The translations under genes and the position numbers were made by a program. 64,000 bases of DNA from Nocardia fluminea (GTDB taxonomy: Bacteria > Actinomycetota > Actinomycetes > Mycobacteriales > Mycobacteriaceae). This document shows positions 48,962 to 64,000 of this stretch, in pieces. The notes under the pieces were generated by a model that saw nothing but the letters and a program-made list of their open reading frames with translations, did not search any database and was not told the DNA's origin. Location of the stretch: NCBI RefSeq assembly GCF_002846365.1, contig NZ_PJMW01000002.1, forward strand, positions 4,526,001 to 4,590,000, written 5' to 3'. Position 1 is the stretch's first letter. Each line of letters opens with the position of its first letter.

Positions 48962-49266
48962 CAGCTCGCCCCCAAGCGCTACTGGTTGGGCGAGATCCGC
49001 GACTCGGGTCGGCGCGAAACCGCTGATCACGCTGGGAGAGGGGTGACTCGCCGGGGACGTCCAAACCTGTCGAACGTCTATCCGCGAGCCCGGAAACTCA
49101 CTACGCTTCCCGGGAACGACCGGGAGAAACCGCGAAGAGGCGGATTAGCCGCAGGCCTGTGACCCCGGTGACTCGAACGCCAGGTCGGTACGAGGACTAA
49201 AGTGAGGACCTGGGCGGTTGCAGCACTCGGCCGACACGGTCCGAATGCAGCGTGAGAGGTGGTGGC
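48962..49266. other. 305-bp intergenic region before rel
   Basis: No ORF with coding character is seen. TAAAGT at 49198-49203 fits a -10 box about 60 bp before the rel ATG, but no convincing -35 is visible. No riboswitch or terminator hairpin is recognised. Confidence 0.4.
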
Positions 49267-51639
49267 ATGACTCGACAACTGGGCGAGGCGAAGGTTGGGC
49301 AGGAATCCACCGGCGCCACGCCGAGCCAGGGTGCACCGGCGAAGACCCCCGAAACCGCCAAGCAGTCCCCGACAGCCTCGGTGCCCAGTTCGGCGTCGCG
49401 GCGGGTTCGTGCGCGGCTGGCTCGGCGGATGACCGGTCAACGGGGGATCGCGGCGGTCAAGCCGGTCCTCGAACCGTTGGCCACCGTCCACCGCGAGCTG
49501 TATCCGAAGGCCAACCTCGGCCTGCTCCAGCGCGCCTTCGACGTCGCCGACGAACGCCACGCCAAGCAGTTCCGCAAATCCGGCGACCCCTACATCACGC
49601 ACCCGCTCGCGGTCGCCAACATCCTGGCCGAACTCGGCATGGACACGACCACCCTGGTCGCGGCCCTGCTGCACGACACCGTCGAGGACACCGGCTACTC
49701 GCTCGAGCAGCTCAAGGAGGAGTTCGGGCAGGAAGTCGCCCACCTCGTCGACGGCGTCACCAAACTCGACAAGGTCAATCTGGGCGCGGCGGCCGAGGCC
49801 GAGACCATCCGCAAGATGATCATCGCCATGGCGCGCGACCCGCGGGTGCTGGTGATCAAGGTCGCCGACCGGCTGCACAACATGCGCACCATGCGTTTCC
49901 TGCCGCCGGAGAAGCAGGCCAAGAAGGCCAAGGAAACCTTGGAGGTGATCGCGCCGCTGGCGCATCGCCTCGGTATGGCCACGGTCAAATGGGAGCTGGA
50001 GGACCTCGCCTTCGCGATCCTGCACCCCAAGAAATACGACGAGATCGTGCGCCTGGTCGCCGATCGCGCACCCTCGCGCGACACCTACCTGGCGAAGGTG
50101 CGCGCGGAGATCACCAACACCCTGGCCGCCTCGCGGATCAACGCGATCGTCGAAGGCAGGCCCAAGCACTACTGGTCGATCTATCAGAAGATGATCGTCA
50201 AGGGCAAAGATTTCGACGACATCCATGACCTGGTCGGCATGCGGATCCTGTGCGAGGAGGTCCGCGACTGCTACGCCGCGGTCGGCGTCGTGCACTCGCT
50301 GTGGCAGCCCATGGCGGGGCGGTTCAAGGACTACATCGCGCAGCCGCGCTACGGGGTCTACCAATCGCTGCACACCACGGTCGTCGGCCCCGACGGCAAG
50401 CCGCTCGAGGTGCAGATCCGCACCCAGGACATGCACCGGACCGCCGAGTTCGGGATCGCCGCGCACTGGCGGTACAAGGAGACCAAGGGCAAGCACTCCG
50501 GTGACGCCGCCGAAGTCGACGACATGGCGTGGATGCGTCAGCTGCTCGACTGGCAGCGGGAGGCCGCCGATCCCGCGGAGTTCCTGGAATCGCTGCGCTT
50601 CGATCTGAAGTCCCCGGAGATCTTCGTGTTCACGCCCAAGGGCGATGTGATCACGCTGCCGCAGAAGTCCACCCCGGTCGACTTCGCGTACGCGGTGCAC
50701 ACCGAGGTCGGGCACAAGTGCATCGGCGCGCGGGTGAACGGTCGCCTGGTGGCGCTGGAACGGCAGCTCGAGAACGGCGAGGTCGTGGAGGTCTTCACCT
50801 CCAAGGCGCAGAACGCCGGACCCAGCCGGGACTGGCAGAAGTTCGTGGTCTCACCGCGCGCGAAAGCCAAGATTCGCCAGTGGTTTGCCAAGGAACGGCG
50901 CGAGGAAGCGCTCGAGAGCGGCAAGGAGCAGATCTCCAAGGAGGTCCGTCGCGTCGGGCTGCCGCTGCAGCGGCTGATGAGCGTCGAGGCGATGACCGCG
51001 GTCGCGCACGAGCTGCACTACAGCGACATCTCCACCCTCTACACCGCGGTCGGCGAGCACCAGGTGTCGGCGCATCATGTGGTGCAGCGGCTCATGGCCC
51101 AGCTCGGCGGCATCGGCGATGTCGAGAACGAGCTGGCCGAGCGGTCGACGCCGTCGACCACGCCCGCGCGTCAACGGGTCACCGGTGACGCGGGCGTGCT
51201 CATCCCCGGTGCGCCGGGAACGGTCGCGAAGCTGGCCAAGTGCTGCACCCCGGTCCCGGGCGACGAGATCATGGGCTTCGTGACCCGTGGTGGCGCGGTG
51301 AGCGTGCACCGGACCGACTGCACCAACGCCGATTCGCTGCAGGAACAGTCGGAGCGGATCATCGAGGTCGAATGGGCGCCATCGCCCTCGTCGGTGTTCC
51401 TGGTCGCGATCCAGATCGAGGCCCTCGACCGCACCCGCCTGCTCTCGGACGTGACCAAGGTACTGGCCGACGAGAAGGTCAACATCCTGTCCGCCTCGGT
51501 GGCCACCCACGGCGACCGCGTCGCGATCAGCAAGTTCACCTTCGAGATGGGCGACCCCAAGCATCTGGGTCACCTGCTCAATGTGGTCCGCAATGTCGAA
51601 GGCGTCTACGACGTGTACCGCGTGACCTCCGCCGCCTGA
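49267..51639 (+). CDS. relA: bifunctional (p)ppGpp synthetase/hydrolase Rel
   Basis: The 790-aa stringent-response enzyme has an N-terminal HD hydrolase domain ([13 protein letters not shown]), a synthetase domain ([28 protein letters not shown]), a TGS domain ([22 protein letters not shown]), a zinc-finger/helical region with [10 protein letters not shown], and a C-terminal ACT domain. Both active sites look intact. ATG 49267 follows AGAGG. A strong hairpin follows the gene. Confidence 0.97.
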
Positions 51640-51684: not shown

Positions 51685-51836
51685 CTGTCTGCCCAGGTGA
51701 TCGCCGAAAGGTTGCTGGTCGCATCGGGTTTGCCGGGGGCAGTGAAAGGGCCGTTTAGGGCAGCGGTCGGGTTACCCGGAATCTGTTACGGTTTAGTGCG
51801 TTTCAACGCTCCACTGGTCAGCCGAAACGGACTGTG

Positions 51837-53486
51837 ATGCGGATCGATATGGCTCGGTGCACGACACGACTCACGGTGACGCTGATCGCGTTCACCGTCG
51901 CTTCGCTGTCGGTTACGGCGGGGGTGGCCGGCGCGGAAGACGGTACACCCACCACGCCGTCTACACACGTATCCATCGCGGCGTGTCCGGCGCTCTACGC
52001 CTTGGGAATTCAGGGGACGGGCGAATCCTCGCCCGACGCGGCGCCCAGTACCGACACCGGGATGCTGTCGACGGTGTTCCGTCCGATGCTGGCCCGTGCG
52101 GCCGACCCGGGACTGGTCGATCGCGCCTATGTGCCGTACGAGGCGGGTTTCGGCGGCGCGGTCCAGGGCGGTGCGGTGCCGTACACCGAGTCGGTGGCCG
52201 GGGGCCTGGAGCGGCTGCGTTCGATGGCGACCCAGGTGACGCAGCGCTGCCCGGACACCCGGATCGCGGTCGTCGGGTATTCGCAAGGCGCCCACGTCGC
52301 CTCGCTGTTCGCCCAGGAGGTCGGTGCGGGCACCGGGGTGCTGGCCGCGGACAAGGTCGCCGCGGTCGCGTTGTTCGCCGATCCGACCCGCGGCGCGAAC
52401 GCGCCACTGTTCCCCGGCGCGCCCGACCTGACAGCACCGCTGGCGGCACCGGGAACCTCCGGTGACGCCGTGACGAGTATCGGCGCGGTGCGCCAAGGGG
52501 TCGCCTCCGGTGGCGGGCTCGCCCCGCAGAGCGACCAGACCGACCACTTCGGTAAGCTCACCGGTCGTGTCGCAAGCTTTTGTGCCACAGGCGATCTCGC
52601 GTGTGATGCACCGCAGGGCGCGCCGATCGTGCGTGCCGTCACCAACCTCATGAGCCAGTCGAAACTGTCCGGCGGCGATCCGATCGGCTCGTTGACCTCC
52701 ATCGCGCAGGCGCTGGCGTTCACCTCCATCAAAACCGCCACCGCGGCGGTCGAGGAGGACCTGTCCGGCACCACCATGGCCGACGTCTCGATCTCGCCGA
52801 AGAAGTCGATCTCGCAGCGACTGTCCGATGCCTCGGACCCGAACAGCACGCTCGACGTGAACGCCGCCTACCGGGCGCTGCTGAAGGTCGGCGTGATCGG
52901 TCTCAACGCCGTCGCCACAGTGGTGAAATCGGTGATCAGCCCGGCGAGTATCAGCGAATTGGCCACGGCCACACTGTCGAATCCGCTGGCCGGGCTGACG
53001 CTGCTCGGCACGAAACTGGCCGGCGCAGTGCCGCAACTGGTACCGCCGACCACCGGGGTGCGGCTGGTCAACGAGGCGTTCAGCGCGGTGCGGCAGAACG
53101 TGACCGACAACGCCGAACTCCTCGACGTCACCACCTGGGTGCGCTACTGGAACACGCTGCAACGCCATGACGCGTACTCGCGCATGGGCGTCGGCGCGAA
53201 CGGCGCCACCCCGACACAGTACGTCGGCGAGTGGTTCGCCGCGCTCGCCCGTGACGCCGCAGGCGTTTCCGGGAAGGGAACCGTACCGGTCGGCGGGTCC
53301 GACTCGCGTGGTATGGGAATATTCGAGAGCGGGACCGGCGCGTCTACGACAACCAAACCCTCCGGTGGGGGACAATTTCCGTTCGGGACAGGAGCCGATG
53401 GCGCCTCATCCGGCGGCGCGACGACTCCGCCTGCCGCGACACCCGTAACCACCGCACCCACCACCCGTCCGTTCTCTGTGAACTGA
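51837..53486 (+). CDS. secreted cutinase-family serine hydrolase with long C-terminal extension
   Basis: The 549-aa protein has a signal peptide (cleavage after about residue 33, VAGAED). The cutinase domain covers about residues 45-250 with nucleophile elbow GYSQGA (S149), CATGDLACD and the late HFGKL. Residues about 290-470 are a further Ala/Val-rich region and the end is Thr/Pro/Gly-rich. Mycolate bacteria use cutinase-like proteins as esterases on lipids or waxes. ATG 51837 is taken; ATG 51849 is possible. It lies 52 bp before the secretion-like cluster, so it may be a substrate or a cell-wall hydrolase for it. Confidence 0.8.
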   Translation: MRIDMARCTTRLTVTLIAFTVASLSVTAGVAGAEDGTPTTPSTHVSIAACPALYALGIQGTGESSPDAAPSTDTGMLSTVFRPMLARAADPGLVDRAYVPYEAGFGGAVQGGAVPYTESVAGGLERLRSMATQVTQRCPDTRIAVVGYSQGAHVASLFAQEVGAGTGVLAADKVAAVALFADPTRGANAPLFPGAPDLTAPLAAPGTSGDAVTSIGAVRQGVASGGGLAPQSDQTDHFGKLTGRVASFCATGDLACDAPQGAPIVRAVTNLMSQSKLSGGDPIGSLTSIAQALAFTSIKTATAAVEEDLSGTTMADVSISPKKSISQRLSDASDPNSTLDVNAAYRALLKVGVIGLNAVATVVKSVISPASISELATATLSNPLAGLTLLGTKLAGAVPQLVPPTTGVRLVNEAFSAVRQNVTDNAELLDVTTWVRYWNTLQRHDAYSRMGVGANGATPTQYVGEWFAALARDAAGVSGKGTVPVGGSDSRGMGIFESGTGASTTTKPSGGGQFPFGTGADGASSGGATTPPAATPVTTAPTTRPFSVN

Positions 53487-53538
53487 TCACCGAGAGGTCT
53501 TCGATGCGAACTGTGCCCGGCGCCGTGGAAAGGGGGGA

Positions 53539-54852
53539 ATGTTGAAGTCGTACAACGAATTGTCGCGCTGGTACTCGGCGCTGGAGCCCGAGACCGAGAC
53601 CGGAGCCCCCGCGCGCCCGGACACCACCGAGCCGGTGGCCGGCGACGACGACGGCGTCGACCGGCATGCGACGAGTCCCGATGCCGCCTCGGCCGCCGAG
53701 CCGGTACCGGAGCCGGTCGCAACGGGAGAGCCCGCGCCGGAACCGTTCAGCCTCACCCTCGATTTCCAGCCGAACGCCGTCGATGATTCGCACGGCCGGG
53801 ACGGAGGGCGCCAGTCGAGCGCCGTCGACGACCCGCACAACCCGGACGGAGGGCGCCAGTCGAGCGCCGTCGACGACCCGCACAACCCGGACGGAGGGCG
53901 GCAGTCGAGCGCCGTCGACGACCCGCACAGCCGCAACGTAGGTCGCGAGGCGAAGGTCGCCGGCGACCCACATGGCTGGAACATGGAGTTCGAGCCGAAA
54001 GCCGGCGACCCGTTCGACCGGCCCACCGAGTTCGATGACGCGACAAGTGAATCCGCCGACTCCGGCGCGGCCGAGTACGAGAAGCGGCCGTACCCGGTCG
54101 AACCGGAGCCAGAGCCCGCTCCGCCACCGCCCGCGCAACTGGCCGGACGCCGCAGTGACTTCACCGGCGGTTGGTCGGACTGGGTCGCCGACCCGGCACC
54201 CGGCCCCGACGACGACTACGACGCCGAACTCGTCCAGTTCCCCTGGCCCGAGGCCGCCGCCGACGAATACGACGACGCCCGCGTGCTCGAACCGTCCGGC
54301 GCGCTGCGCGCGAACCGGAAACGTCAGCGCGTCTGGGTGGTCCTCGCGCTCTCGGTGCTCGTACTCGTGCTCGCTGCGACCGGCGTGTTCTTTTTGCTCT
54401 TCGGGCGCGGCGACAGCGACACCGCCCGCGGCGCCGTCCCACCACTGCACTTCACCGCGGGCAACCTGACCGCCGACACCGCGGGCTCGTGCCCGACCGA
54501 ACGCACCGAGACCGTGCTGCGCAGCGCCGAAGCGGGCGGCACCGACTCGGGCCCCGACGCCGTCCTCGCCTTCCAGTACGCCTACTACGTGACCCGATCG
54601 GGGGAGCAGGCCAGAGCGGTGGTCACTCCCGACGCCGATGTCTCGCCGGCCGCCGTGATCCAGCGCGGTATCGACACCATCCCGGTGGGGACCACCCACT
54701 GCGTGCGGATCACCACCGTCGCTGCCGACCGGTTCACGGTGGAGGTCACCGAGTTCCGGCCCGCGGGCGCACCGGCCACCTACACCAAGCAATCGGTGCG
54801 GACAGCGCTGGTCGGCGATCGCACGCTCATCACGGGCATCGCGGCAGGGTAA
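53539..54852 (+). CDS. single-TM protein with cytoplasmic tandem repeats (T4SS-like cluster)
   Basis: The 437-aa protein has an acidic, low-complexity N-terminal half containing 15-residue repeats (SAVDDPHNPDGGRQS). One TM helix lies near residues 264-290 (VWVVLALSVLVLVLAATGVF). A C-terminal extracytoplasmic domain has Cys-Pro (SCPTE) and a paired Cys near THCVR. No family is recognised. ATG 53539 follows AAGGGGGG. It is the first gene of the tightly spaced secretion-like block; a scaffold or anchoring role is inference. Confidence 0.7.
   Translation: MLKSYNELSRWYSALEPETETGAPARPDTTEPVAGDDDGVDRHATSPDAASAAEPVPEPVATGEPAPEPFSLTLDFQPNAVDDSHGRDGGRQSSAVDDPHNPDGGRQSSAVDDPHNPDGGRQSSAVDDPHSRNVGREAKVAGDPHGWNMEFEPKAGDPFDRPTEFDDATSESADSGAAEYEKRPYPVEPEPEPAPPPPAQLAGRRSDFTGGWSDWVADPAPGPDDDYDAELVQFPWPEAAADEYDDARVLEPSGALRANRKRQRVWVVLALSVLVLVLAATGVFFLLFGRGDSDTARGAVPPLHFTAGNLTADTAGSCPTERTETVLRSAEAGGTDSGPDAVLAFQYAYYVTRSGEQARAVVTPDADVSPAAVIQRGIDTIPVGTTHCVRITTVAADRFTVEVTEFRPAGAPATYTKQSVRTALVGDRTLITGIAAG
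53776..53932 (+). repeat. 45-bp tandem coding repeats
   Basis: A 45-bp unit recurs with exact period (GGACGGAGGG at 53799, 53844 and 53889) and encodes NAVDD/SAVDDPHNPDGGRQS. The two central copies are nearly identical in DNA, so the array expanded recently. Degenerate copies flank it. Confidence 0.85.
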
Positions 54853-54861
54853 GGAGAGGCG

Positions 54862-55716
54862 ATGACAGACGATTGGAGCCGATGGCTCGACGAGGCCCCC
54901 GAGGGGGACCCGTCCGATGACCTGGCGCGTGATCCGGCTCCGGTGGTGCGGTTGCGGCGCCGCAACGGTGAGCGCCGCGACGGCACCCGCAGGCCGATCC
55001 TGGTGGTCGGCGGCTGCGGCGGCGCGGGCACCACGACGACAGCGCTCGGCCTGGCCGCGGAACTGGTCACCGCCGGTGCGACCACAGTGGCGGTCGACGC
55101 GACCGCGGCGGGAAGCGACATCGCGCTGCGCGGGGCGGACAAGCACCTGCACCCGGTGAACCTGCAGTCCTGGGTCTACGGCCGGGGCGACGACGAACCG
55201 GCACCGCTGGAAGAGTGCCTTTCCCGCTCCACCTCCGGTTTCGGGCTGCTCTGGCGGGACGCGACCCCGCTGCGCCGCCGCGCGACATTTCTCACTGTCG
55301 CGCGGGCGCTGGACACCGGGGGATACACCGCGGTGTACGACGGCGGCAACCCGATTGCCGGGCGGCAACTGCGGCCGCTGCTCGACGACGCCGATATCGC
55401 GCTGGTACTGGCCATCCCGGCCCGCGTCGACGCCGCCAACCGGCTGCGCGTGACCCTGGAATGGCTCGACGACCACTACGGCGACGACGGTGCCGGTGTG
55501 GTCGCCGACACCACCATCGTTGTCTCGCATCAGTATTCACACGACGACTCGCGCGTAGCGGAGCATTTGCGCGAACACCTGTCGGGCTGGGTGCGTGAGG
55601 TCGTCGAGATCCCCTACGATCCGCATCTCGCGCGCGGGGAACTGGTCCGCCACGCCGAGCTGGCCGAGGCGACGCGTTCGGCGTATGCGAGCTTGCTCGC
55701 GGGAGTGGCATCATGA
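54862..55716 (+). CDS. MinD/Ssd-like protein with deviant P-loop
   Basis: The 284-aa protein has an N-terminal acidic tail, then VVGGCGGAGTTTTALGLA near residues 46-64. This resembles the GGxGGAGATT of CpaE/Ssd-type MinD relatives and lacks the canonical KGGxGKT lysines. Later VDATAAGSDIALRG and ALVLAIPARVDAAN fit the fold. It may bind a nucleotide weakly or serve as a positioning scaffold for the membrane machine. It overlaps the next gene as ATGA. Confidence 0.75.
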   Translation: MTDDWSRWLDEAPEGDPSDDLARDPAPVVRLRRRNGERRDGTRRPILVVGGCGGAGTTTTALGLAAELVTAGATTVAVDATAAGSDIALRGADKHLHPVNLQSWVYGRGDDEPAPLEECLSRSTSGFGLLWRDATPLRRRATFLTVARALDTGGYTAVYDGGNPIAGRQLRPLLDDADIALVLAIPARVDAANRLRVTLEWLDDHYGDDGAGVVADTTIVVSHQYSHDDSRVAEHLREHLSGWVREVVEIPYDPHLARGELVRHAELAEATRSAYASLLAGVAS

Positions 55717-56354
55717 CGGCAGCCATGAATCTTCGTCGTCGTCGTGAACCGGACGCCCCCGCCGGTGTAGTCGCGCCGCCAGAATCGCTGCGCGCCAAGA
55801 TCTGGGAGCGCCCGGTGCCCGGGGTCGGCCGGGCACCGCTGGTGTGGTTGCTCGGCGTGCACGGTGGCGCGGGCGCGACCACGCTGTCGCACGTGCTCGC
55901 TCCGGCCGCCGACGCGCGCGGGCGCTGGCCCGGCGTGTTCGACCGCGAATCCCCCTATGTCGTCCTGGTCGCCAGGGAGACCATCTCCGGACTCACCCGC
56001 GCGCACGATCTGCTGCGCCAGCACCACGCCGGGCTCGCGGGCCCGGCGCTGGTTCTCGGCCTGATCACCGTGGCCGCGCGTCCCGGCCGGATGGCGCCGG
56101 AGATCCGGCGCTACCGGGAGGTGGTCGGCTCGCTGGCCGGGCACGTCTGGCAGGTGCCGTGGTTCGAGGAATGGACTCTGGTGGAGTCCCACGTGCTTCC
56201 GGTGTGGTCGCCTGGCGACGAGGTGGCGGTCAGGAAACGCCGCCCCGACCCGCTCGACGACGTACCGGTCGAAATCGGTGACCTCGGTACCGATGTGGTC
56301 GCCGCGATCCGCACGAGTCTCGGCGCGGCTGCGCCGGGCGAGGGTCGATCATGA
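55713..56354 (+). CDS. second P-loop-like protein of the T4SS-like cluster (DUF6668-like)
   Basis: The 213-aa protein has LLGVHGGAGATTLSHVLA near residues 45-63, again a MinD-like loop without the Walker lysine. YVVLVARETISGLTRAHDLLRQ matches the region that in MinD follows switch II. I recall similar short proteins (DUF6668) in Streptomyces T4SS-like loci, but cannot verify this. It is coupled to the preceding paralog-like gene by ATGA, so the two may form a heterodimer. Confidence 0.65.
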   Translation: MTAAMNLRRRREPDAPAGVVAPPESLRAKIWERPVPGVGRAPLVWLLGVHGGAGATTLSHVLAPAADARGRWPGVFDRESPYVVLVARETISGLTRAHDLLRQHHAGLAGPALVLGLITVAARPGRMAPEIRRYREVVGSLAGHVWQVPWFEEWTLVESHVLPVWSPGDEVAVRKRRPDPLDDVPVEIGDLGTDVVAAIRTSLGAAAPGEGRS

Positions 56355-56448
56355 ACGCCGGGCGGGTTGCCGGTCGGTGGTGTACAAACGTGTGTCGTCG
56401 TCGAAGTGTTTGTGGCACAACACCTTTACTGTGGGAGAAAGGCACCCG

Positions 56449-56742
56449 ATGAGCATGCTCCTCCTCGCCGTGCAGGACACGTACGGCACCGTGCTGGCCC
56501 AGGTCGGTAATCCGACCCCGGAGGCTCCTCCCGGCTCGGAGAAGATCCTGCAGCTGGTGCGATACCTCACCTGGTTCGTGCTGCTGTCGGGTATCTGCGG
56601 CATCACCTACGCGGGCGGCAAGTTCGCGTGGGAGCGCTGGACCGGTGGTGGCCTCGAATCGCCGAAGATGGTGGCGGGCGCCATGATCGGTGGCGTCGTG
56701 GCGACCAGCGCCGGCACGATCATGAGTGCGGTCATCGGTTAG
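56449..56742 (+). CDS. small two-TM protein, VirB2/TrbC pilin-like
   Basis: The 97-aa protein has two hydrophobic helices (about residues 34-54 and 69-95) separated by a short basic loop (KFAWERWTGGG). This is the layout of VirB2/TrbC pilins. The N-terminal 30 residues might be cleaved or extracellular. ATG 56449 follows AAAGG. The stop shares a base with the next start (TAGTG). The pilin assignment rests on topology and context. Confidence 0.6.
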   Translation: MSMLLLAVQDTYGTVLAQVGNPTPEAPPGSEKILQLVRYLTWFVLLSGICGITYAGGKFAWERWTGGGLESPKMVAGAMIGGVVATSAGTIMSAVIG

Positions 56743-56996
56743 TGATCACCGTGCTCGCCTACAAACAGATCCCGGCCGACGTGCTGGCGCCGATGATGCA
56801 GTTGCTCAACTGGCTGCTCTGGTTCGTCCTGCTGTCGTGCCTGGCCTGGATGATCCTGTCGGCGGGTCGATTGTGGATCGCGTTCCGCAGCGACCTGGCG
56901 GTCAACGACGCCTCCCACGGCGTCCTGATGAGTCTGATCGGTGCCTCGGTCGCCAGTACCGCGTCCGCGATCGCGCTGGCCTTCCTGCCGGCATGA
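56742..56996 (+). CDS. second small two-TM pilin-like protein
   Basis: The 84-aa protein begins with GTG. Its two TM helices (about residues 19-40 and 60-82) and the segment MMQLLNWLLWFVLLSCLAWMI recall QLVRYLTWFVLLSGICGIT of the preceding protein, so the pair is probably a tandem duplication. Its start overlaps the upstream stop by one base and its stop overlaps the next start as ATGA. Confidence 0.6.
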   Translation: MITVLAYKQIPADVLAPMMQLLNWLLWFVLLSCLAWMILSAGRLWIAFRSDLAVNDASHGVLMSLIGASVASTASAIALAFLPA

Positions 56997-57601
56997 ATTC
57001 CACAGTGACACGACCGGTTGCGGTCGGTATCGCATTGCTCGCCGCGGCCGTCGGCTGCGGAAGCGGCGGTGATACCGGCCCTGACCTGGCAGCCGCCCCC
57101 ACCGGGGTGGGCTGGCAGGAGTATCAGGGCATCGCGCTGCCGCACACCGACCAGGGCCCGAAAACGGTGGGCCAGGGCGCCGCGACGGGGTTCGAGCATT
57201 CCCCGCGCGGGGCGGGCCTGGCGGCACTGACCCACACCATTCGCTTGTCGGTGGCGCCGGACAGTCAGTGGGCCCAGGTGGTGAACGCCGAACTCGTCCC
57301 GGGGCAGGCGCGGGACGAGTGGGCGATCAACCGGGTACAGCTGTCGATCACCGGACCCGCCACAGCGGAGTACGCGCCGAAATTGTTGGGTTACAAAATT
57401 ACCGAATATCGTGACGACCGAACGACTGTCGACGTCTATACCGAATACTCCGACCGGTCACGGGCGGTGAACCACACCACGGTCAGCTGGTACGGCGGAG
57501 ACTGGCGGCTGCAGTTACCCGATCCACGCTCCACCGACCGACCGGTCGACCCGATCGATGAATTACCGCAGGGCATTGTGACATTGGAGGCACCGCAGTG
57601 A
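56993..57601 (+). CDS. lipoprotein of the T4SS-like cluster
   Basis: The 202-aa protein has a signal peptide and lipobox AVGC (C22). The mature part has GWQEYQGIALPHTDQGPKTVGQGAATGF followed by PRGAGLAALTHTIRL. The same pattern occurs in the next protein, so they are paralogs. The C-terminal half (VSWYGGDWRLQLP) suggests an NTF2-like fold, as in VirB8/TcpC-type components, but this is inferred. It overlaps both neighbours (ATGA, GTGA). Confidence 0.65.
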   Translation: MNSTVTRPVAVGIALLAAAVGCGSGGDTGPDLAAAPTGVGWQEYQGIALPHTDQGPKTVGQGAATGFEHSPRGAGLAALTHTIRLSVAPDSQWAQVVNAELVPGQARDEWAINRVQLSITGPATAEYAPKLLGYKITEYRDDRTTVDVYTEYSDRSRAVNHTTVSWYGGDWRLQLPDPRSTDRPVDPIDELPQGIVTLEAPQ

Positions 57602-58413
57602 GCGAGAAGGAGCCGGGCACGCGCGACCGCGCGTCCTTCGGCATGATCGCCTCCGGTGCCCTGCTCGCCCTGATCATGGTCGCGGGCGCCGTCGTGTACT
57701 TCACCCGCGACGGCGGCAGCGAGGTGGACAACGCGCCACCGCCCGCTCAGGCCGCGGGCGGAACGGGATTCGCCGAACCCGAGGTCGACCTGCTCGGCAG
57801 GCGAGTGGACATCCCGAACAACCCGGCGGGTCAGCCGCTGGCCCAGCAACCGGGTACGCAACGTACCCCCGCAGACCCCGATTGGCTGACCGGCGCGCCG
57901 GAGGGCACCAAGAAACCGCACGGCTGGCAGCGTGTCTACGGCGCGTCGGTGCCGTTCTCCACCTCCGACGGGCCGTCGCGGATCGAGGACGGGCTCGCCG
58001 TCGGCTACGCGCGCACACCGCAGGGCGCCGCGCTGGCCGCCGCGCAGATCACCTACCGGCTCAATGCCCGCCCGGCCGACCGCGACCTGTACGTGACGCA
58101 AGTGCGGGTCAGCACAGCGCAACTGGCCGCCTACGACTCCGCGTTGTCGGGCGAGCGGCTGCCCAAACAGCAGCCGGAGAAGGTCACCAGGTACTTCGTG
58201 GCCTCCGACGCGTTCAAGATCGACGATTTCGCCGAGGATCTGGCGATCGTGCGGCTGGCCTCGCGCGGTCCGGTGATCGACGGCAAGCAGTTGTACGCCG
58301 CCATGCGGATGATCGTGGTCTGGGACGCCGGTGACTGGCGGCTCAAACCGTCGACGACAGCAAATACCCAGACCGAGTACGTGGAATCGCTGGCGGGGTG
58401 GACGACATGGTGA
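57598..58413 (+). CDS. single-TM envelope protein, paralog of the preceding lipoprotein
   Basis: The 271-aa protein has one TM helix near residues 15-35, a Pro/Ala-rich linker, then GWQRVYGASVPFSTSDGPSRIEDGLAVGYARTPQGAALAAAQITYRL aligned with the lipoprotein (GWQ, P, GP, G-A-x-G, P-x-GA-x-LAA, RL). The end, VVWDAGDWRLKP, matches its partner too. It is probably an extracytoplasmic VirB8-like scaffold. GTG 57598 overlaps the previous stop. Confidence 0.65.
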   Translation: MSEKEPGTRDRASFGMIASGALLALIMVAGAVVYFTRDGGSEVDNAPPPAQAAGGTGFAEPEVDLLGRRVDIPNNPAGQPLAQQPGTQRTPADPDWLTGAPEGTKKPHGWQRVYGASVPFSTSDGPSRIEDGLAVGYARTPQGAALAAAQITYRLNARPADRDLYVTQVRVSTAQLAAYDSALSGERLPKQQPEKVTRYFVASDAFKIDDFAEDLAIVRLASRGPVIDGKQLYAAMRMIVVWDAGDWRLKPSTTANTQTEYVESLAGWTTW

Positions 58414-58469
58414 TCGAGGTACAGCACAGCCCGGATCGATTCCGCGCGGACCATCGAGGGGTGCCAACA

Positions 58470-59924
58470 ATGCTGAGGCGGATCGTCACCATTTTCGCGG
58501 TGATCTTCACCGTGATGATCGCGACGCCGACGGTGGCCTACGGCCAGACCTACGGCTTCGACGAGGCGTGCAACGAACTACACGACACCCTCGACAGCGT
58601 CGCGATCCCCGGAGTCTCACTCGGCGACGCGGCATCGGCGGTGTGCAAGGCGGGCAATGCCGCCTCCCACCCCGGCGACGCGGCCACCGCGGTCAAGGAC
58701 AAGGCGTGGGATTCGACCTTCGGCAAGGTGGTCGACTCGCTGATGAAGGGCCTCGGCGAGGCGCTGATCCTGGCGCTGACCTTCTGGATGAAGGTGCCCA
58801 ACGAGGCGGTGAGCGACTCGGGGGCACTGTTCACCAAGATCAACGACTACACCTATCAGATCCAGATATTGCTGTTGATCGCCTCGGTGATCATCACCGG
58901 CGGCCGATTGGCCGAGGCCAGACGCGGGGCGGCCGTGAGCGAGGCCGCCGAATCGTTCCGCCTGTTCGCCAGAGTGGTGTTCAGTTCGTGGATGCTGGGC
59001 GCGGTGATCGTCGCTGGTACGCGCGCCTCGGACAAGTTCTCCGAGTGGATCATCGAGGACGCCACCGGCGGCAATGCCAAGAACATGGCCGAGCTGATGG
59101 TGAAAACCAGTAAGCTACAAGCCTTTTCGCCGGGCCTGGTGCTGATCATCGCCATCGTCGGCCTGCTCGGCGCGCTCGCCCAGATCGTACTGGCCATCGT
59201 GCGGCAGGGTCTGCTGGTGGTCGCCGCGGGCGTGCTGCCGCTGGCCGCCGCCGCCTCGGCGACCGGCACCGGCAAGCAGTCCTATCAGAAACTGGTGGGC
59301 TGGATCATCGCGTTCATGCTGTTCAAACCGGTGGCCGCGATCGTGTACATGATCGCGTTCACCACCGCGGGCCACGTCGACGAGACCACGGAATCGGGCG
59401 GCCTGCCCAGCGGCGAGGACGCGCAGCGGATGCTGGTCGCGCTGGTGCTGCTGTGCAGCGTGGCGTTCGTACTGCCCGCGCTGATGCGCCTGGTCGCGCC
59501 CGCGGTCGCCACCGTCGGCACCGGTGGTTCGGGTCTGATGGTGGCCGGTGGTGCGGCGGTAGCCGCGATGGGTCTCGGCGCGATCGGCACCAAGGCGGTC
59601 GCCTCCCGGCCGGTGGCGGCGCCCGGCTCCGCGGGTTACTTCGGTAGCGGCGGTGCGGGTCCGCGGCCCAGTGGACCCGGCGGCGGTACCGGTGGCGGTG
59701 GCGGCAACGCTCCGCGACCCGCGCCGCCACCGCGTGGAGGCGGGGCCGCGCCGCCGCAGACGACCAGTTCGGGCTCGGTGCCCGCGGGCGCCGCCCGCAA
59801 TGTGGCGGTCGCCCGGACCGCGGCCAACACCACCGGGCGCGCGGACCAATCGATGGGCGACGTCGCCGGTGACCGCTGGTCGAATCGTTCACCCGACCTC
59901 GGCAGGAGCACGATTCCGCGATGA
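58470..59924 (+). CDS. TrbL/VirB6-like polytopic membrane protein
   Basis: The 484-aa protein has a signal peptide (MLRRIVTIFAVIFTVMIATPTVAYG), an extracytoplasmic segment with two Cys, then about six TM helices between residues 95 and 390, and a long Gly/Pro/Ala-rich C-terminal tail. The topology is that of TrbL/VirB6 channel proteins. ATG 58470 is chosen because it begins a clean signal peptide and has GAGGGG upstream; GTG 58410 would overlap the previous stop. It overlaps the next gene as ATGA. Confidence 0.7.
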   Translation: MLRRIVTIFAVIFTVMIATPTVAYGQTYGFDEACNELHDTLDSVAIPGVSLGDAASAVCKAGNAASHPGDAATAVKDKAWDSTFGKVVDSLMKGLGEALILALTFWMKVPNEAVSDSGALFTKINDYTYQIQILLLIASVIITGGRLAEARRGAAVSEAAESFRLFARVVFSSWMLGAVIVAGTRASDKFSEWIIEDATGGNAKNMAELMVKTSKLQAFSPGLVLIIAIVGLLGALAQIVLAIVRQGLLVVAAGVLPLAAAASATGTGKQSYQKLVGWIIAFMLFKPVAAIVYMIAFTTAGHVDETTESGGLPSGEDAQRMLVALVLLCSVAFVLPALMRLVAPAVATVGTGGSGLMVAGGAAVAAMGLGAIGTKAVASRPVAAPGSAGYFGSGGAGPRPSGPGGGTGGGGGNAPRPAPPPRGGGAAPPQTTSSGSVPAGAARNVAVARTAANTTGRADQSMGDVAGDRWSNRSPDLGRSTIPR

Positions 59925-61416
59925 CGACCTCGGCGACCGACACCTACGAGCGCCGCTCGTACGGGCTGTGGCAGAAACCGCGCAGCGCGGGCCTTTTCGG
60001 CCTGCGCTGGGAAGAGACCGTGATCGGTTTCGTCGTGGTGATCACGGCACTGATCTGCGCGATGGTCGGTGGATTCAAATGGGGCTTCGTCGTCGGCGGG
60101 CTCGGCGCGTTGGTGATGGTGCCCCTGGTGTGGCGGACGGGGGGCCGCTCGGGCTATGAGACGGGACTGATGATGTTCAACTGGAGGCGCTCGCGCAACA
60201 ACGGCGAGCACGTGTATCGCGGTGGCCGGTTCTCCCGGATCCCCGGCGGTGTCACGAAATTGCCGGGGCTGCTCGCGCCGTCGAAGCTCTACGAAGGCAT
60301 CGACGCCGGGGGCTATCACTTCGGGATGATCCATCTACCCGCGTTCGCGCAGTACACGGTGGTGTTGCGAGCGTGGCCGCAGGGACACGAGGCGGTGGAC
60401 CAGCCGGTGATCGACCGCTGGGTCGCGGCCTGGGGAACCTCCTCGCCTCGGTCGGGCAGACCAGCGACATCGTCGCGGTGGTCCCGGTGATCGACACGGT
60501 GCCCGAGACCGGGAACCGGTTGCTCAACGAGGTGTCCACGATCACCCGCCCCGAAGCCCCCGAGCTGGCCCAGCAGGTGATGTACGAGCTGGCCACCGAA
60601 TTGCCGCAGGAGCGTGTGCAATTGCTGCCCCGGGTGGCGATCACGTTCAAGGCCACCACCGCCGAGCGGCGCAAGAACCCGGCCGAGGAAGCGGTGGAGA
60701 TCGGGCGCAGGCTGCCCGGTATCTGCGCGGCGCTGGCCGAGGCGGGCGTGCGCGCGCAGCCGATGTCGGCGGAGGAGGTCATCTCCTTCATCCGCCGCAG
60801 CTACGACCCGGCCGCGCAGGCCGACCTCGAGGTGGCCGCCGCCGATCCCGGCGGGCACGGCCTCGGCTGGGACGACGCGGGCCCGGTGTCCTACGACGAG
60901 AAATGGGATCACCTGATCCACGACGGTGGCCGCTCGGTGACCTGGGAGATGGACGCGGCGCCCGAGGGTGCGGTGGACGAGCGGGTGCTGCAGCGACTGC
61001 TCGCGCCCAATCCCGAAGTGCCACGCAAGCGCATCGCGATCGTCTACCGGCCGCACTCGGCCGCCGACGCCGCCGAGATCGTCGACGACGACTTCAAGAA
61101 TGCGCTCGTGGCGCAGCAGAGCGAACGCGGTGTGGTCTCGGCGGCGGCCACGCTGCGTGTCGGCGCCACCCAGCAGGCGCGCGAGGAACAGGCACGCGGA
61201 CACGGTGTCACCCGTTTCGGGGCGCTGGTCACCATCACCGAACCGCTGCGCGGTGACCTGCCCCGCATCGAGGCCATCACCCGCGACCTCTCCACGCAGG
61301 CCCGGCTCAAGATCCGGCGCTGCTACCGCTACCAGTCCGCGGCGTTCGCGGCATCTCTGGGTTGCGGCGTGATCCTGCCCGAACACGCAACCATTCCGAA
61401 GGCATTGGCGGGGTGA
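59921..61416 (+). pseudogene. SCO6880-family protein interrupted by a -1 frameshift
   Basis: Frame 1 runs from ATG 59921 to a stop at 60490 and begins with two TM helices after TYERRSYGLWQKPRSAGLFGL, typical of SCO6880/PrgI-type subunits. Family-like sequence then changes frame at about 60431-60436 (TGGGGAAC) and continues as NLLASVGQTSDIVAVVPVID to a stop at 61416. One extra G in the G4 run would restore a ~498-aa protein. The junction reads VAAWG/NLLAS. It may be a base-call error, a true mutation, or slippage. Confidence 0.8.
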
Positions 61417-61423
61417 GGCGATT

Positions 61424-63781
61424 ATGGGACGCGACTACGAACCCCCGGTGCGCGATCGCGACGACGTCGCGCTGCGCCCGGTCCACCGGCCGCCGCGCAT
61501 CCGCGGCGAACGCGAGCCACGGCCCGCGGGGAGCGCACCGCGGGTGAGCGACGACGTGCTCGGCCTCGACGAGCGCACCGACCGCGACGAGCGCGAAAGC
61601 TCGGCGCGGGGATCACGCGTGCCCGAAGAACGTCCGCCGGGCGAGCGCAGGTCGCGTGAGGAACCCCGGGGCGACCGAGGCCGCCAGGCCCGGCCGCGTG
61701 GTGAGGAACCGCGCAGGCCGAGAGCGGACGAGGACGGTCGCGTTCGCTCCCGTGGTGAGGAGATACGCGGTCGCGCGGACGGACCGCGCCCGGCCGGCCG
61801 CGACGGGTCGGGGGAGCGACGCACCCGGCGCCCGCATCCCGATGCGGACCGGGCCGCCAAGGCACGGGCCGATCGTGGGCTGCGCGACGAGGATCACGGC
61901 CCACGTCTGGAACACCAACGCCCCCAGAGCGATCCGCGGCGACGGCCGAAGCAGGCCGAACCCAAGCTGACGAAGAAGAAGCCGAGGCCCGCGAAGGCTG
62001 TCCGCCCGATCCGGCCAGACGAGGCCGCCGACCGCGCGATGGGTTCGGGTCGATCCGCGAAATCGACCAAGCCGGACCGGCGTTCGCAGTCCGGGCCCGC
62101 CCTACTCGACGACGCCACTCGCGCCCGGTACGAGATGATCGCCCGCGAGCAGTCGGGTCTGCGCGCGGCCTGGGCGACCTTCCGGATCCACACCGACGAC
62201 CTGCGCCGTAACAACGCGCACGCCCGCACCGAGGCCGTGGTCAAGGACGGGTTCGACCGCACCACCGCCGAATTGACCGACCGCGGGTACTCGGGCGCGG
62301 GCGGCGGCAAGATGAACGTCGTCGGCCGTCCGGTCGAGTATCGCGCCACCACCGCCCAGGTCGCGGGTCTGTGGCCGTGGTCGGTCGGTGCCGGTGCGCC
62401 GCTGATCGGTACCCCCCTCGGCTCGCACCTGCACACCGGCGCCCCGGTGTGCTTCGACCCGATGAACTGGTTCATGCGCGGCAGCTTCATCACCGCGCCC
62501 AGCCTGTTCGTGCTCGGCCTCAACGGTTTCGGCAAGTCCTCGCTGGTGCGCCGGATCGTGCTCGGCGGCATCGCGCAGGGCATCACCCCGCTGATCCTGG
62601 CCGACGTGAAACCCGACTATCGCAAGATGGTCGAACTCGTCGGTGGTCAGGTGATCGACCTCGGCTACGGGCACGGCAAGCTGAACCCTCTGGCCGCGGG
62701 CGTGCTCGGTTCGGTGGTGCCGCGCCTGGCCGACAAGCCCGCACTGCAGCGTCAGGTGCTGCAGGATCTGCGCGCCCGGCAGGTGACGCTGATCGCGGGC
62801 CTGGTGGAACTGGTCCGCGGCGCCCGCGTCGCCGACTTCGAGGAAACGCTCATCGCCACGGCGCTGCGCATCCTCTACCAGCCCGGCGGCTTCACCCCCG
62901 ACAAACCGCCGATCATGGAGAACCTGCTCGAGGTGATCGTCGGCGGCGGCGCCGAGATGATGCTCGACGCGGGCGCCGACAACGCCGACGAATACCAGAA
63001 CGCGATCAAGGGTCTGCGCCGTTCGCTGCGCGCGCTCACCCAGGGCCCGTTCGGCGCGATCTTCAACGGCCAGACCAGCGTTCCGATCGACACCGGGGCG
63101 GTGGCGGTGTGCATCGATGTCTCGCACATCCCCAGCGGTGACAAGAAGCTCAAGGCCGCCGTCATGCTGGCCTGCTGGGCAGACGGTTTCGCCTCGGTCG
63201 AGGCCGCGCACGTGCTGGCCGACGCCGACCTCGGCCCGCAGCGCTACTTCCAGGTGGTGATGGACGAGCTGTGGCAGGTGCTCGGGCTCGGCGACTTCAT
63301 GGTCGACCGCGTCGACGAGCTGACCCGTCTGCAGCGTGGTCTGGCCACCGCCCTGATCATGATCAGCCACACGATCAAGGATCTGCAGGCGCTCGGCTCG
63401 GACGCGGCGATCGCCAAGGCCATCGGCTTCCTGGAACGCGCGCGCGCCAAGATCTTCGGCGCGCTGCCCGCCGAGGAGATCAGCAGGCTCGACTCCACGG
63501 TGCCGTTCACCTCGGCCGAGCAGGAGATGGTCACCAGTTGGTCGGCGCCGCAAGCACTCACGGGTGAGGCGCTCAAGCCCGGCCAGCAACGACCGTCCCC
63601 GCCCGGTACCGGCAAGTTCCTGCTGAAGGTCGGCGAGGATCGCCGCCCCGGCATTCCTTTCCACATGGAGTTCACGGTGTCGGAACGAGAAAGCGGAATC
63701 CACGACACGAACCAGCGCTTCAGCGAGTTCGGCGACAACCCGAGGGGCACGCCGGACTACTCGAACGGGAGTGAGCAATGA
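61424..63781 (+). CDS. VirB4-like ATPase of the T4SS-like cluster
   Basis: The 785-aa protein has an Arg/Glu/Asp/Pro-rich N-terminal extension (about residues 1-220) that looks disordered. The ATPase core follows, with Walker A GLNGFGKSS (about 364-372), Walker B QVVMDELW (D614, E615) and the VirB4/TraC-type motif ALIMISHTIKDL. It should energise pilus assembly or substrate export from the cytoplasmic face. It follows the SCO6880-family gene by seven bases and overlaps the next gene as ATGA. Confidence 0.85.
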   Translation: MGRDYEPPVRDRDDVALRPVHRPPRIRGEREPRPAGSAPRVSDDVLGLDERTDRDERESSARGSRVPEERPPGERRSREEPRGDRGRQARPRGEEPRRPRADEDGRVRSRGEEIRGRADGPRPAGRDGSGERRTRRPHPDADRAAKARADRGLRDEDHGPRLEHQRPQSDPRRRPKQAEPKLTKKKPRPAKAVRPIRPDEAADRAMGSGRSAKSTKPDRRSQSGPALLDDATRARYEMIAREQSGLRAAWATFRIHTDDLRRNNAHARTEAVVKDGFDRTTAELTDRGYSGAGGGKMNVVGRPVEYRATTAQVAGLWPWSVGAGAPLIGTPLGSHLHTGAPVCFDPMNWFMRGSFITAPSLFVLGLNGFGKSSLVRRIVLGGIAQGITPLILADVKPDYRKMVELVGGQVIDLGYGHGKLNPLAAGVLGSVVPRLADKPALQRQVLQDLRARQVTLIAGLVELVRGARVADFEETLIATALRILYQPGGFTPDKPPIMENLLEVIVGGGAEMMLDAGADNADEYQNAIKGLRRSLRALTQGPFGAIFNGQTSVPIDTGAVAVCIDVSHIPSGDKKLKAAVMLACWADGFASVEAAHVLADADLGPQRYFQVVMDELWQVLGLGDFMVDRVDELTRLQRGLATALIMISHTIKDLQALGSDAAIAKAIGFLERARAKIFGALPAEEISRLDSTVPFTSAEQEMVTSWSAPQALTGEALKPGQQRPSPPGTGKFLLKVGEDRRPGIPFHMEFTVSERESGIHDTNQRFSEFGDNPRGTPDYSNGSEQ

Positions 63782-64000
63782 TGCCGCACCGGTCCTATCG
63801 CCGGGTCTCGCCGGAGGTCCGCAACGCCGCCGTCGCCCAGGTGGTGGCGCTGACCGACAAGCTGCGCAGCGAATCGGAGGCTTGCCGCATGGTGGCCGAA
63901 CAGATCGGCGTGCACGCCAATTCGGTGCGCAACTGGGTCCGCGCGACCCAGGACCCGAGCCTGGACCGCCTGGACGCCACCGCGCTACGCCGCAAAGTGG
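63778..64000 (+). CDS. HTH protein resembling IS3 OrfA, cut by the window end
   Basis: The 74 codons in view begin MMPHRSYRRVSPEVRNAAVAQV and continue with VAEQIGVHANSVRNWVR, an IS3-type transposase HTH pattern. The ATG overlaps the VirB4-like stop as ATGA, which an inserted element would hardly achieve, so it is probably a domesticated DNA-binding subunit of the operon. The rest is outside the window. Confidence 0.6.
   Translation, partial: MMPHRSYRRVSPEVRNAAVAQVVALTDKLRSESEACRMVAEQIGVHANSVRNWVRATQDPSLDRLDATALRRKV

Follow-up and report, generated by a model that had tools for sequence, protein, structure and literature searches.

A type IV secretion locus between rel and hisS

The stretch of DNA analysed here, called the window, comprises 64,000 nucleotides of the Nocardia fluminea genome (C2:4526001-4590000 of 8.06 Mb in four contigs). 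Its right end carries a type IV secretion system (T4SS)-like run of genes, which continues in a stretch that reaches beyond the window edge (L009; window position = L009 position + 52999). Scans of open reading frames (ORFs), Pfam and NCBIfam gave the gene order: rel, a cutinase-family esterase, genes 1, 2 and 3, two small pilin-like proteins, two envelope proteins, a VirB6-like protein, an SCO6880-family protein and a VirB4-type ATPase, followed to the right of the window by a helix-turn-helix (HTH) protein, a lysin with M23, SLT and NlpC/P60 domains, a lipoprotein-like ORF, VirD4/TraG, DUF4913 and hisS (Table 1). The run extends from 51834 to 63781, with a further gene from 63778 crossing the window edge, all on the + strand and mostly overlapping. 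A previous reading of the sequence alone had described such a run at 53539..64000, adjoining rel; the run and its neighbor are borne out, and the start lies one gene earlier, at the cutinase. That reading did not see VirD4 because the window edge cuts the locus before it. The rightward extension that it proposed does reach VirD4/TraG, with no relaxase among the ORFs scanned before hisS.

Two hallmarks of a conjugative T4SS, VirB4 and VirD4, are present. Gene 10, already named as a VirB4-like ATPase by the sequence-only reading, matches the VirB4 model NF045975 at 4e-13, which is under that model's own cut-off, and the solved VirB4 structure 4ag5 at 2.7e-4; a Walker A motif is found in 81/81 VirB4 proteins and in 79/80 VirD4 proteins, the exception being a piece cut by a contig end. 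The window VirB4 shares 97% identity with its counterpart in Nocardia salmonicida NBRC 13393. The SCO6880 assignment also holds, as both pieces of gene 9 exceed the 60-bit cut-off of NF042935, although the protein proved to be split between two frames. The two proteins proposed as MinD/Ssd-like are weak cases: they score 24.9 and 14.8 bits against an Ssd (TIGR03815) cut-off of 154, and gene 3 is nearest to DUF6668, the annotation given to the gene at the equal operon place in named plasmids. The pilin, VirB6 and VirB8 names are given by size, place and membrane helices or topology. No family in Pfam or NCBIfam matches the VirB6-like protein or the first small protein, and nothing in Pfam exceeds the cut-off for genes 5-7, which were left out of the NCBIfam scan. 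A weak model of the VirB8-like gene 7 (predicted local distance difference test, pLDDT, 52) gave no Foldseek match under 1e-3.

Table 1. Genes of the T4SS locus and its borders. Positions are those of the window unless preceded by L009.
Feature	Position	Strand	Basis or remark
rel	49252..51639	+	left border of insertion, outside machine
Cutinase-family esterase, 550 amino acids	51834..53486	+	PF01083 1.5e-18
Gene 1, single transmembrane helix, long acidic N-terminal part	53539..54852	+	no Pfam match
Gene 2, MinD/ParA-like P-loop protein	54862..55716	+	PF01656 8.8e-5, below cut-off; TIGR03815 24.9/154 bits
Gene 3, DUF6668-like P-loop protein	55713..56354	+	PF20373 4e-4, 20.8 vs cut-off 27
Gene 4, small pilin-like membrane protein	56449..56742	+	size, place and hydrophobic stretches only
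Gene 5, second small pilin-like protein	56742..56996	+	profile seen only in the window's family
Gene 6, lipoprotein-like	56993..57601	+	related to gene 7 by profile
Gene 7, one transmembrane helix, VirB8-like by place	57598..58413	+	NTF2-like as tendency only
Gene 8, polytopic VirB6-like	58398..59924	+	place and topology; no family match
Gene 9, SCO6880 first piece	59921..60490	+	NF042935 3.3e-48, profile 1-162
Gene 9, SCO6880 second piece, other frame	60373..61416	+	NF042935 6.7e-114, profile 158-477
Gene 10, VirB4-type ATPase	61424..63781	+	NF045975, PDB 4ag5, Walker A
Gene 11, small HTH protein	63778..64000, ends L009:11087	+	crosses window edge
Lysin (M23, SLT, NlpC/P60)	L009:11149-12804	+	three-domain wall hydrolase
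Lipoprotein-like ORF	between lysin and VirD4, to L009:13370	+	ORF list
VirD4/TraG	L009:13402-15228	+	PF02534 4.5e-26, PF12696 2.4e-30
DUF4913	L009:15225-15650	+	family scan
hisS	L009:17143	+	right border

The locus is a fixed insertion under purifying selection

The T4SS block is an insertion of roughly 16-19 kb between rel and hisS. These two genes lie 18.5-21.6 kb apart in all 14 Nocardia genomes that have both on one contig (they are split in two of 16) and 16.1 kb apart in G145, a genome of the sister genus, whereas the gap is 1.1-3.4 kb in 16/16 other genomes of the family (one of 17 split). Of 136 relatives of the locus, the best 80 were used for counts of loci, and all are from Nocardia. 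Gene order is constant across these 80, with some parts absent; VirD4 is seen in 79, hisS lies downstream in 76, the contig ending first in the other four (L022, L045, L062, L077), and the end of rel can be seen in 18, those with a flank long enough to include it. The G145 locus contains rel, genes 1, 3-5 and 7-10, the lysin, gene 13 (the lipoprotein-like ORF), VirD4, DUF4913 and hisS; gene 2 and the HTH gene were not recognised there. As the block is present in both Nocardia and G145, it entered before the split of Nocardia and its sister genus and has been retained since. SCO6880 itself is found in 16/16 Nocardia of the family sample, this genome included, patchily elsewhere in the family, and in 69 of 201 genomes overall. 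In the synteny comparison suggested by the sequence-only reading, the locus keeps one chromosomal place in the Nocardia sampled.

In two Nocardia genomes (G265:C11 and G293:C1), rel lies on the strand opposite to the T4SS block and hisS, and that border has therefore been inverted. The N. fluminea genome also has a second hisS-like gene (C1:1060789-1062042, 306 bits).

The T4SS genes that were measured are under purifying selection. The ratio of nonsynonymous to synonymous substitution rates (dN/dS) was taken as the median over nine closely related pairs, or six in the case of rel. It is 0.022 for the larger, C-terminal part of SCO6880 and 0.037 for gene 4, the first pilin-like gene; the lysin (0.139), VirD4 (0.155), VirB4 (0.161) and DUF4913 (0.122) stand beside reference values of 0.133 for hisS and 0.008 for the visible part of rel. 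Gene 1 has the highest value (0.376), and the values for the cutinase, obtained on domain pieces of which some span about 35 codons, are unfit for use. Mean column identity of SCO6880 over eight Nocardia rows is 94%.

SCO6880 has one peculiarity in this genome. It consists of two overlapping frames whose matches are neighboring parts of a single profile, while it is a single frame in 66 of the 67 loci that have both halves (66 relatives and this one), with this genome as the sole exception. Either the assembly is wrong here or the gene broke recently. SCO6880 might conceivably be a split-off N-terminal domain of VirB4. The model built from eight near-identical Nocardia rows is unusable (pLDDT 37); against solved structures, the SCO6880 profile gave nothing under E 0.8. 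The second piece (60373-61416) weakly resembles EccE, a type VII secretion protein, at a level below cut-off (PF11203, 0.0056).

No relaxase was found in the resident locus

Neither a relaxase nor an integrase is present among the ORFs scanned in the window and L009, in agreement with the sequence-only reading. The locus thus lacks the relaxase expected of a conjugative T4SS, and it shows neither the integrase nor the patchy distribution of an integrative and conjugative element (ICE), since every Nocardia sampled has it, and in the same place. Together with the purifying selection, this supports the earlier proposal of a resident machine rather than a mobile element. Another view would be that the locus is the decaying remnant of an integrated ICE or plasmid. 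A plasmid-type gene order without a relaxase, the frame break in this genome and the loss of the cutinase, lysin or gene 6 from some Nocardia loci are what one would expect of such a remnant, but the measured genes are under selection, the locus is found throughout the Nocardia sampled, SCO6880 is in one frame in 66 of 67 loci, no tRNA was found in the window, L009 or L010, and no integrase was seen. We consider decay very improbable.

Relaxases elsewhere in the genomes were searched as the families MobF (PF08751) and MobP (PF03432). MobF is present in five of 16 Nocardia and MobP in two, and ten have neither. The N. fluminea genome has two MobF genes, both away from the resident locus, and no MobP. 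Relative to two further T4SS islands (C2:4290-4320 kb and C2:2616-2656 kb; L011-L014), these MobF genes lie beyond VirD4, at distances of approximately 25 and 49 kb; the islands are about 28-30 kb long and 89-97% alike in aligned pieces. It could be imagined that the resident channel is kept as a helper for plasmids or ICEs that bring their own relaxase and use the locus in trans, in which case its function would still be conjugation. The selection on VirD4 and DUF4913, the DNA-side parts, would fit such a role, as would the occurrence of MobF in some Nocardia, this one included. However, SCO6880 is present in all 16 Nocardia, including the ten in which neither of the two searched relaxase families was found, and the MobF genes of this genome lie beyond the other two islands and not by the resident locus. 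A helper role therefore appears quite unlikely to us.

The locus shares its gene order with plasmid conjugation modules

A similar operon is present on six named plasmids of Nocardia, Rhodococcus, Hoyosella, Gordonia, Dietzia and Corynebacterium, genera of the window's GTDB family, which we take to be the mycolic-acid bacteria (mycolata). The gene order is shared, and a relaxase is annotated near the operon in five of the six; on the sixth, from Nocardia sp. NBC_01377, the stretch has no VirD4 or relaxase, and transposition genes follow VirB4. Examples are pKNR (Rhodococcus opacus B4), pGKT1 (Gordonia sp. KTR9) and pAS9A-2 (Hoyosella), which carry SCO6880-type T4SSs. Their order is a cutinase, hypothetical proteins at the place of gene 1 and the MinD-like gene, a DUF6668 or hypothetical protein, small proteins, envelope proteins, a protein at the VirB6-like place, SCO6880, VirB4, a small gene at the HTH place, a lysin, VirD4 and DUF4913. 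They differ in that a MobF, or a MobP with MobC, is found near the plasmid operon, whereas the Nocardia locus has none that we could find and is fixed between rel and hisS. The sequence-only reading did not recognise the locus as a plasmid conjugation module that is almost complete but for the relaxase, nor the upstream cutinase as a part of that module. We infer that the transfer ran from plasmid to chromosome.

T4SSs of Arthrobacter, Cryobacterium arcticum, Kocuria, Micromonospora and Streptomyces share a narrower set of parts, namely a small pilin-like gene, the VirB6-like place, SCO6880, the VirB4 place and VirD4. As annotated, DUF6668 is present in three of these five stretches and DUF4913 in four; one small pilin-like gene is annotated, and no cutinase was annotated or found by profile. 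On plasmids, SCO6880 is found in 456 records at E 1e-5, including 94 from Streptomyces and 52 from Arthrobacter. A scan of viral contigs gave 25 stretches that fitted a pattern, with no relative among them.

A cutinase is linked to the T4SS in mycolata

The distribution of the companion genes was determined with profiles built from Nocardia loci, run on stretches of up to 20 kb around SCO6880 (three were shorter, 12.7-19.8 kb) that were hand-picked to spread over genera. Forty were from the window's family (37 from other genera and three second Nocardia copies, some genomes giving two or three stretches) and 20 from other families of the order. A cutinase is present in 31/40 stretches of the family and in 0/20 of the other families. 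When a distant branch (L160, L178, L190) is left out, the figures are 31/37 and 0/10. All 31 cutinases lie upstream of SCO6880 on the same strand, and in seven the lysin is directly next, 4-163 bases on. Other parts show the same restriction: gene 1 (28/40), gene 5 (22), the HTH gene (18), gene 2 (13) and the lipoprotein-like gene 13 (28) were each found in none of the 20 stretches of other families, while the profile of the VirB6-like gene 8 matched 36/40 and 10/20. Fisher tests gave p values of 2e-9 for the cutinase by family and 1.6e-4 for the cutinase with the lysin, which ignore relatedness and are not to be read as probabilities.

Chance proximity can be rejected from the background density of cutinases: with the linked ones counted, 33 other genomes of the family have approximately 1.05 per Mb, which corresponds to 0.021 per 20 kb. 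In the other families, eight of 20 genomes have a cutinase match, none of them near SCO6880. We also rejected the idea that the cutinase always heads the operon, as 11 of the 25 stretches with both have gene 1 before it; hypothetical genes stand before it, on the same strand, in three of the six named mycolata plasmids. One genome of the family (G128) has two SCO6880 genes and no PF01083 match anywhere.

Plasmids follow the same pattern. A cutinase is present on 6/6 of the mycolata plasmids named above and on 0/5 of the others, and of 151 plasmid records in which this type of cutinase was found at E 1e-20, 150 are from mycolata (Rhodococcus, Prescottella, Gordonia, Nocardia, Dietzia, Corynebacterium or Hoyosella). 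When the SCO6880 and cutinase listings were compared over 60 rows each, spread over the ranking, all 12 records in both had the cutinase on the strand of SCO6880, 4.9-7.8 kb upstream of it.

A tree was drawn from 81 SCO6880 proteins. A cutinase accompanies 42 of the 47 rows in its main mycolata branch and four further rows in a second branch. The cutinase linkage is therefore an old and consistent one that arose about twice, not through many separate gains. Among the 40 Nocardia loci whose upstream side is visible, this one included, 34 have both cutinase and lysin, four have neither, two have the lysin only and none has the cutinase only; loss of the lysin thus goes with loss of the cutinase. 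The four loci without either (L074, L075, L083, L084) all have an opposite-strand gene of the short-chain dehydrogenase/reductase type at the upstream place of the cutinase.

The window cutinase is a member of its family (PF01083, 67.8 bits against a cut-off of 25.9), with the columns of the Ser-Asp-His triad present as Ser150, Asp254 and His445, the latter two about 190 residues apart; we read its N-terminus as resembling a signal peptide. Its best solved relatives are 3aja (1.2e-17) and 5w95 (9e-17), which we take to be mycobacterial Culp6/Rv3802c. Culp6/Rv3802c and, presumably, phage LysB have the cutinase family and the GYSQG serine in common with the linked enzymes. The spacing differs from that of Culp6/Rv3802c and, presumably, of LysB: in 29 of 34 linked members, catalytic Asp and His are 189-199 residues apart, with 128 in L171, L172 and L174, and 252 and 238 in L181 and L183. 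All 34 linked ORFs scanned, the window's included, match PF01083; Asp is kept in 34, His in 31 and Ser in 29. Most linked cutinases of the main clade score 272-640 bits with the Nocardia profile, and 20 cutinases from elsewhere reach at most 101, although this profile does not separate six divergent linked ones (L171, L172, L174, L180, L183, L224; 42-124 bits). Tandem cutinases occur in four Nocardia islands, namely the two further islands of this genome, each with one copy that has no catalytic serine, and L197 and L198; in every pair, one has GYSQG and the other Ala or Gly in place of the serine.

Could the cutinase be cargo, or a nutrient esterase that travels with plasmids and is no part of the machine? 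The loci that persist without it and the copies without a serine would agree with this. On the other hand, its constant strand and side of SCO6880 in the 31 stretches and 12 plasmid records, the lysin directly behind it in seven, its distinct, long subfamily and its loss together with the lysin speak against a passenger, and we regard this explanation as unlikely.

A proposed role at the mycomembrane

We propose that the locus is probably a resident T4SS derived from a mycolata plasmid conjugation module, without relaxase, inserted before the split of Nocardia and its sister genus and kept by selection, in which the cutinase opens the mycomembrane and the cargo is most likely protein. VirD4 would pick up the substrate, and VirB4 would power transport with SCO6880 as its membrane partner, through a channel presumably made of the VirB6- and VirB8-like proteins and the two small pilin-like subunits. 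The M23/SLT/NlpC enzyme, if secreted, would open the peptidoglycan, and a secreted cutinase would hydrolyse ester-linked lipids, mycolates or other mycomembrane lipids, where the channel passes. This role of the cutinase is suggested by its family distribution and its pairing with the lysin. Protein is the favored cargo because the locus has no relaxase of its own, the missing relaxase being the sole support for this choice; DNA mobilised in trans would be less likely.

Several observations weigh against this proposal. No substrate or effector was found in our analysis. The broken SCO6880 frame may mean that the copy of this genome does not function or is wrongly assembled. No cutinase was found in the G145 locus or in six of the 40 Nocardia loci with a visible upstream side, and the lysin is missing from nine of 80; the core can therefore persist without them. 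Nine family stretches have no cutinase (L159, L160, L166, where the contig ends first, L169, L177, L178, L182, L184 and L190), and five of the 34 linked cutinases have lost the catalytic serine, although four of those five elements have a second cutinase with GYSQG. With a change count of 7, the tree gives the linkage only about two origins, and an independent-pairs test has too little power to reach significance (p = 1). Lastly, the 151st plasmid record, assigned to Cryobacterium sp. ANT_H26B, carries a whole mycolata-type module with its cutinase; either a plasmid was transferred between families or the strain is mislabelled.

A broader version of the proposal can be offered tentatively, and we would sooner doubt than accept it. 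The long-insert cutinase, gene 1, the second pilin-like protein and the lipoprotein-like proteins might together form a mycolata-specific outer-envelope module by which the T4SS crosses the mycomembrane, with a relaxase-free core secretion system as its form in Nocardia. The counterpart of such a module would presumably be the VirB7-VirB9-VirB10 outer-membrane core of Gram-negative bacteria.

From a biological perspective, a lipid-ester hydrolase upstream of the channel genes, sometimes just before a lysin, offers a testable answer to the question of how conjugation machines pass through the mycomembrane, and a cutinase with this task would parallel the lytic transglycosylases that serve at the peptidoglycan. 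The T4SS, fixed throughout a genus of soil bacteria with opportunists among its members and having one component under stronger constraint than hisS, is also a candidate core secretion system.

Additional observations on single components

Some parts of the locus vary among Nocardia. Of the 48 loci that have genes 5 and 7, gene 6 went unrecognised in 21. The N-terminal region of VirB4 is very variable, with open frames from 584 to 1661 residues, the shortest being cut by contig ends; L041, L052, L064, L081 and L093 are examples, and in the window copy this region (61424-62050) is charged and of low complexity.

Related sequences are also scattered over the N. fluminea genome. Weak SCO6880-like matches lie within long ORFs at C1:1018365, C2:3759158, C3:87996 and C2:5958216, with a GYGQG cutinase approximately 10-11 kb from the first two. 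Around three orphan copies of gene 4, no T4SS genes were recognised in 20-kb stretches, which were not family-scanned; the copies, two of them divergent at C4:163144-163898 and one at C1:326307-326595, have 65-77% protein identity.

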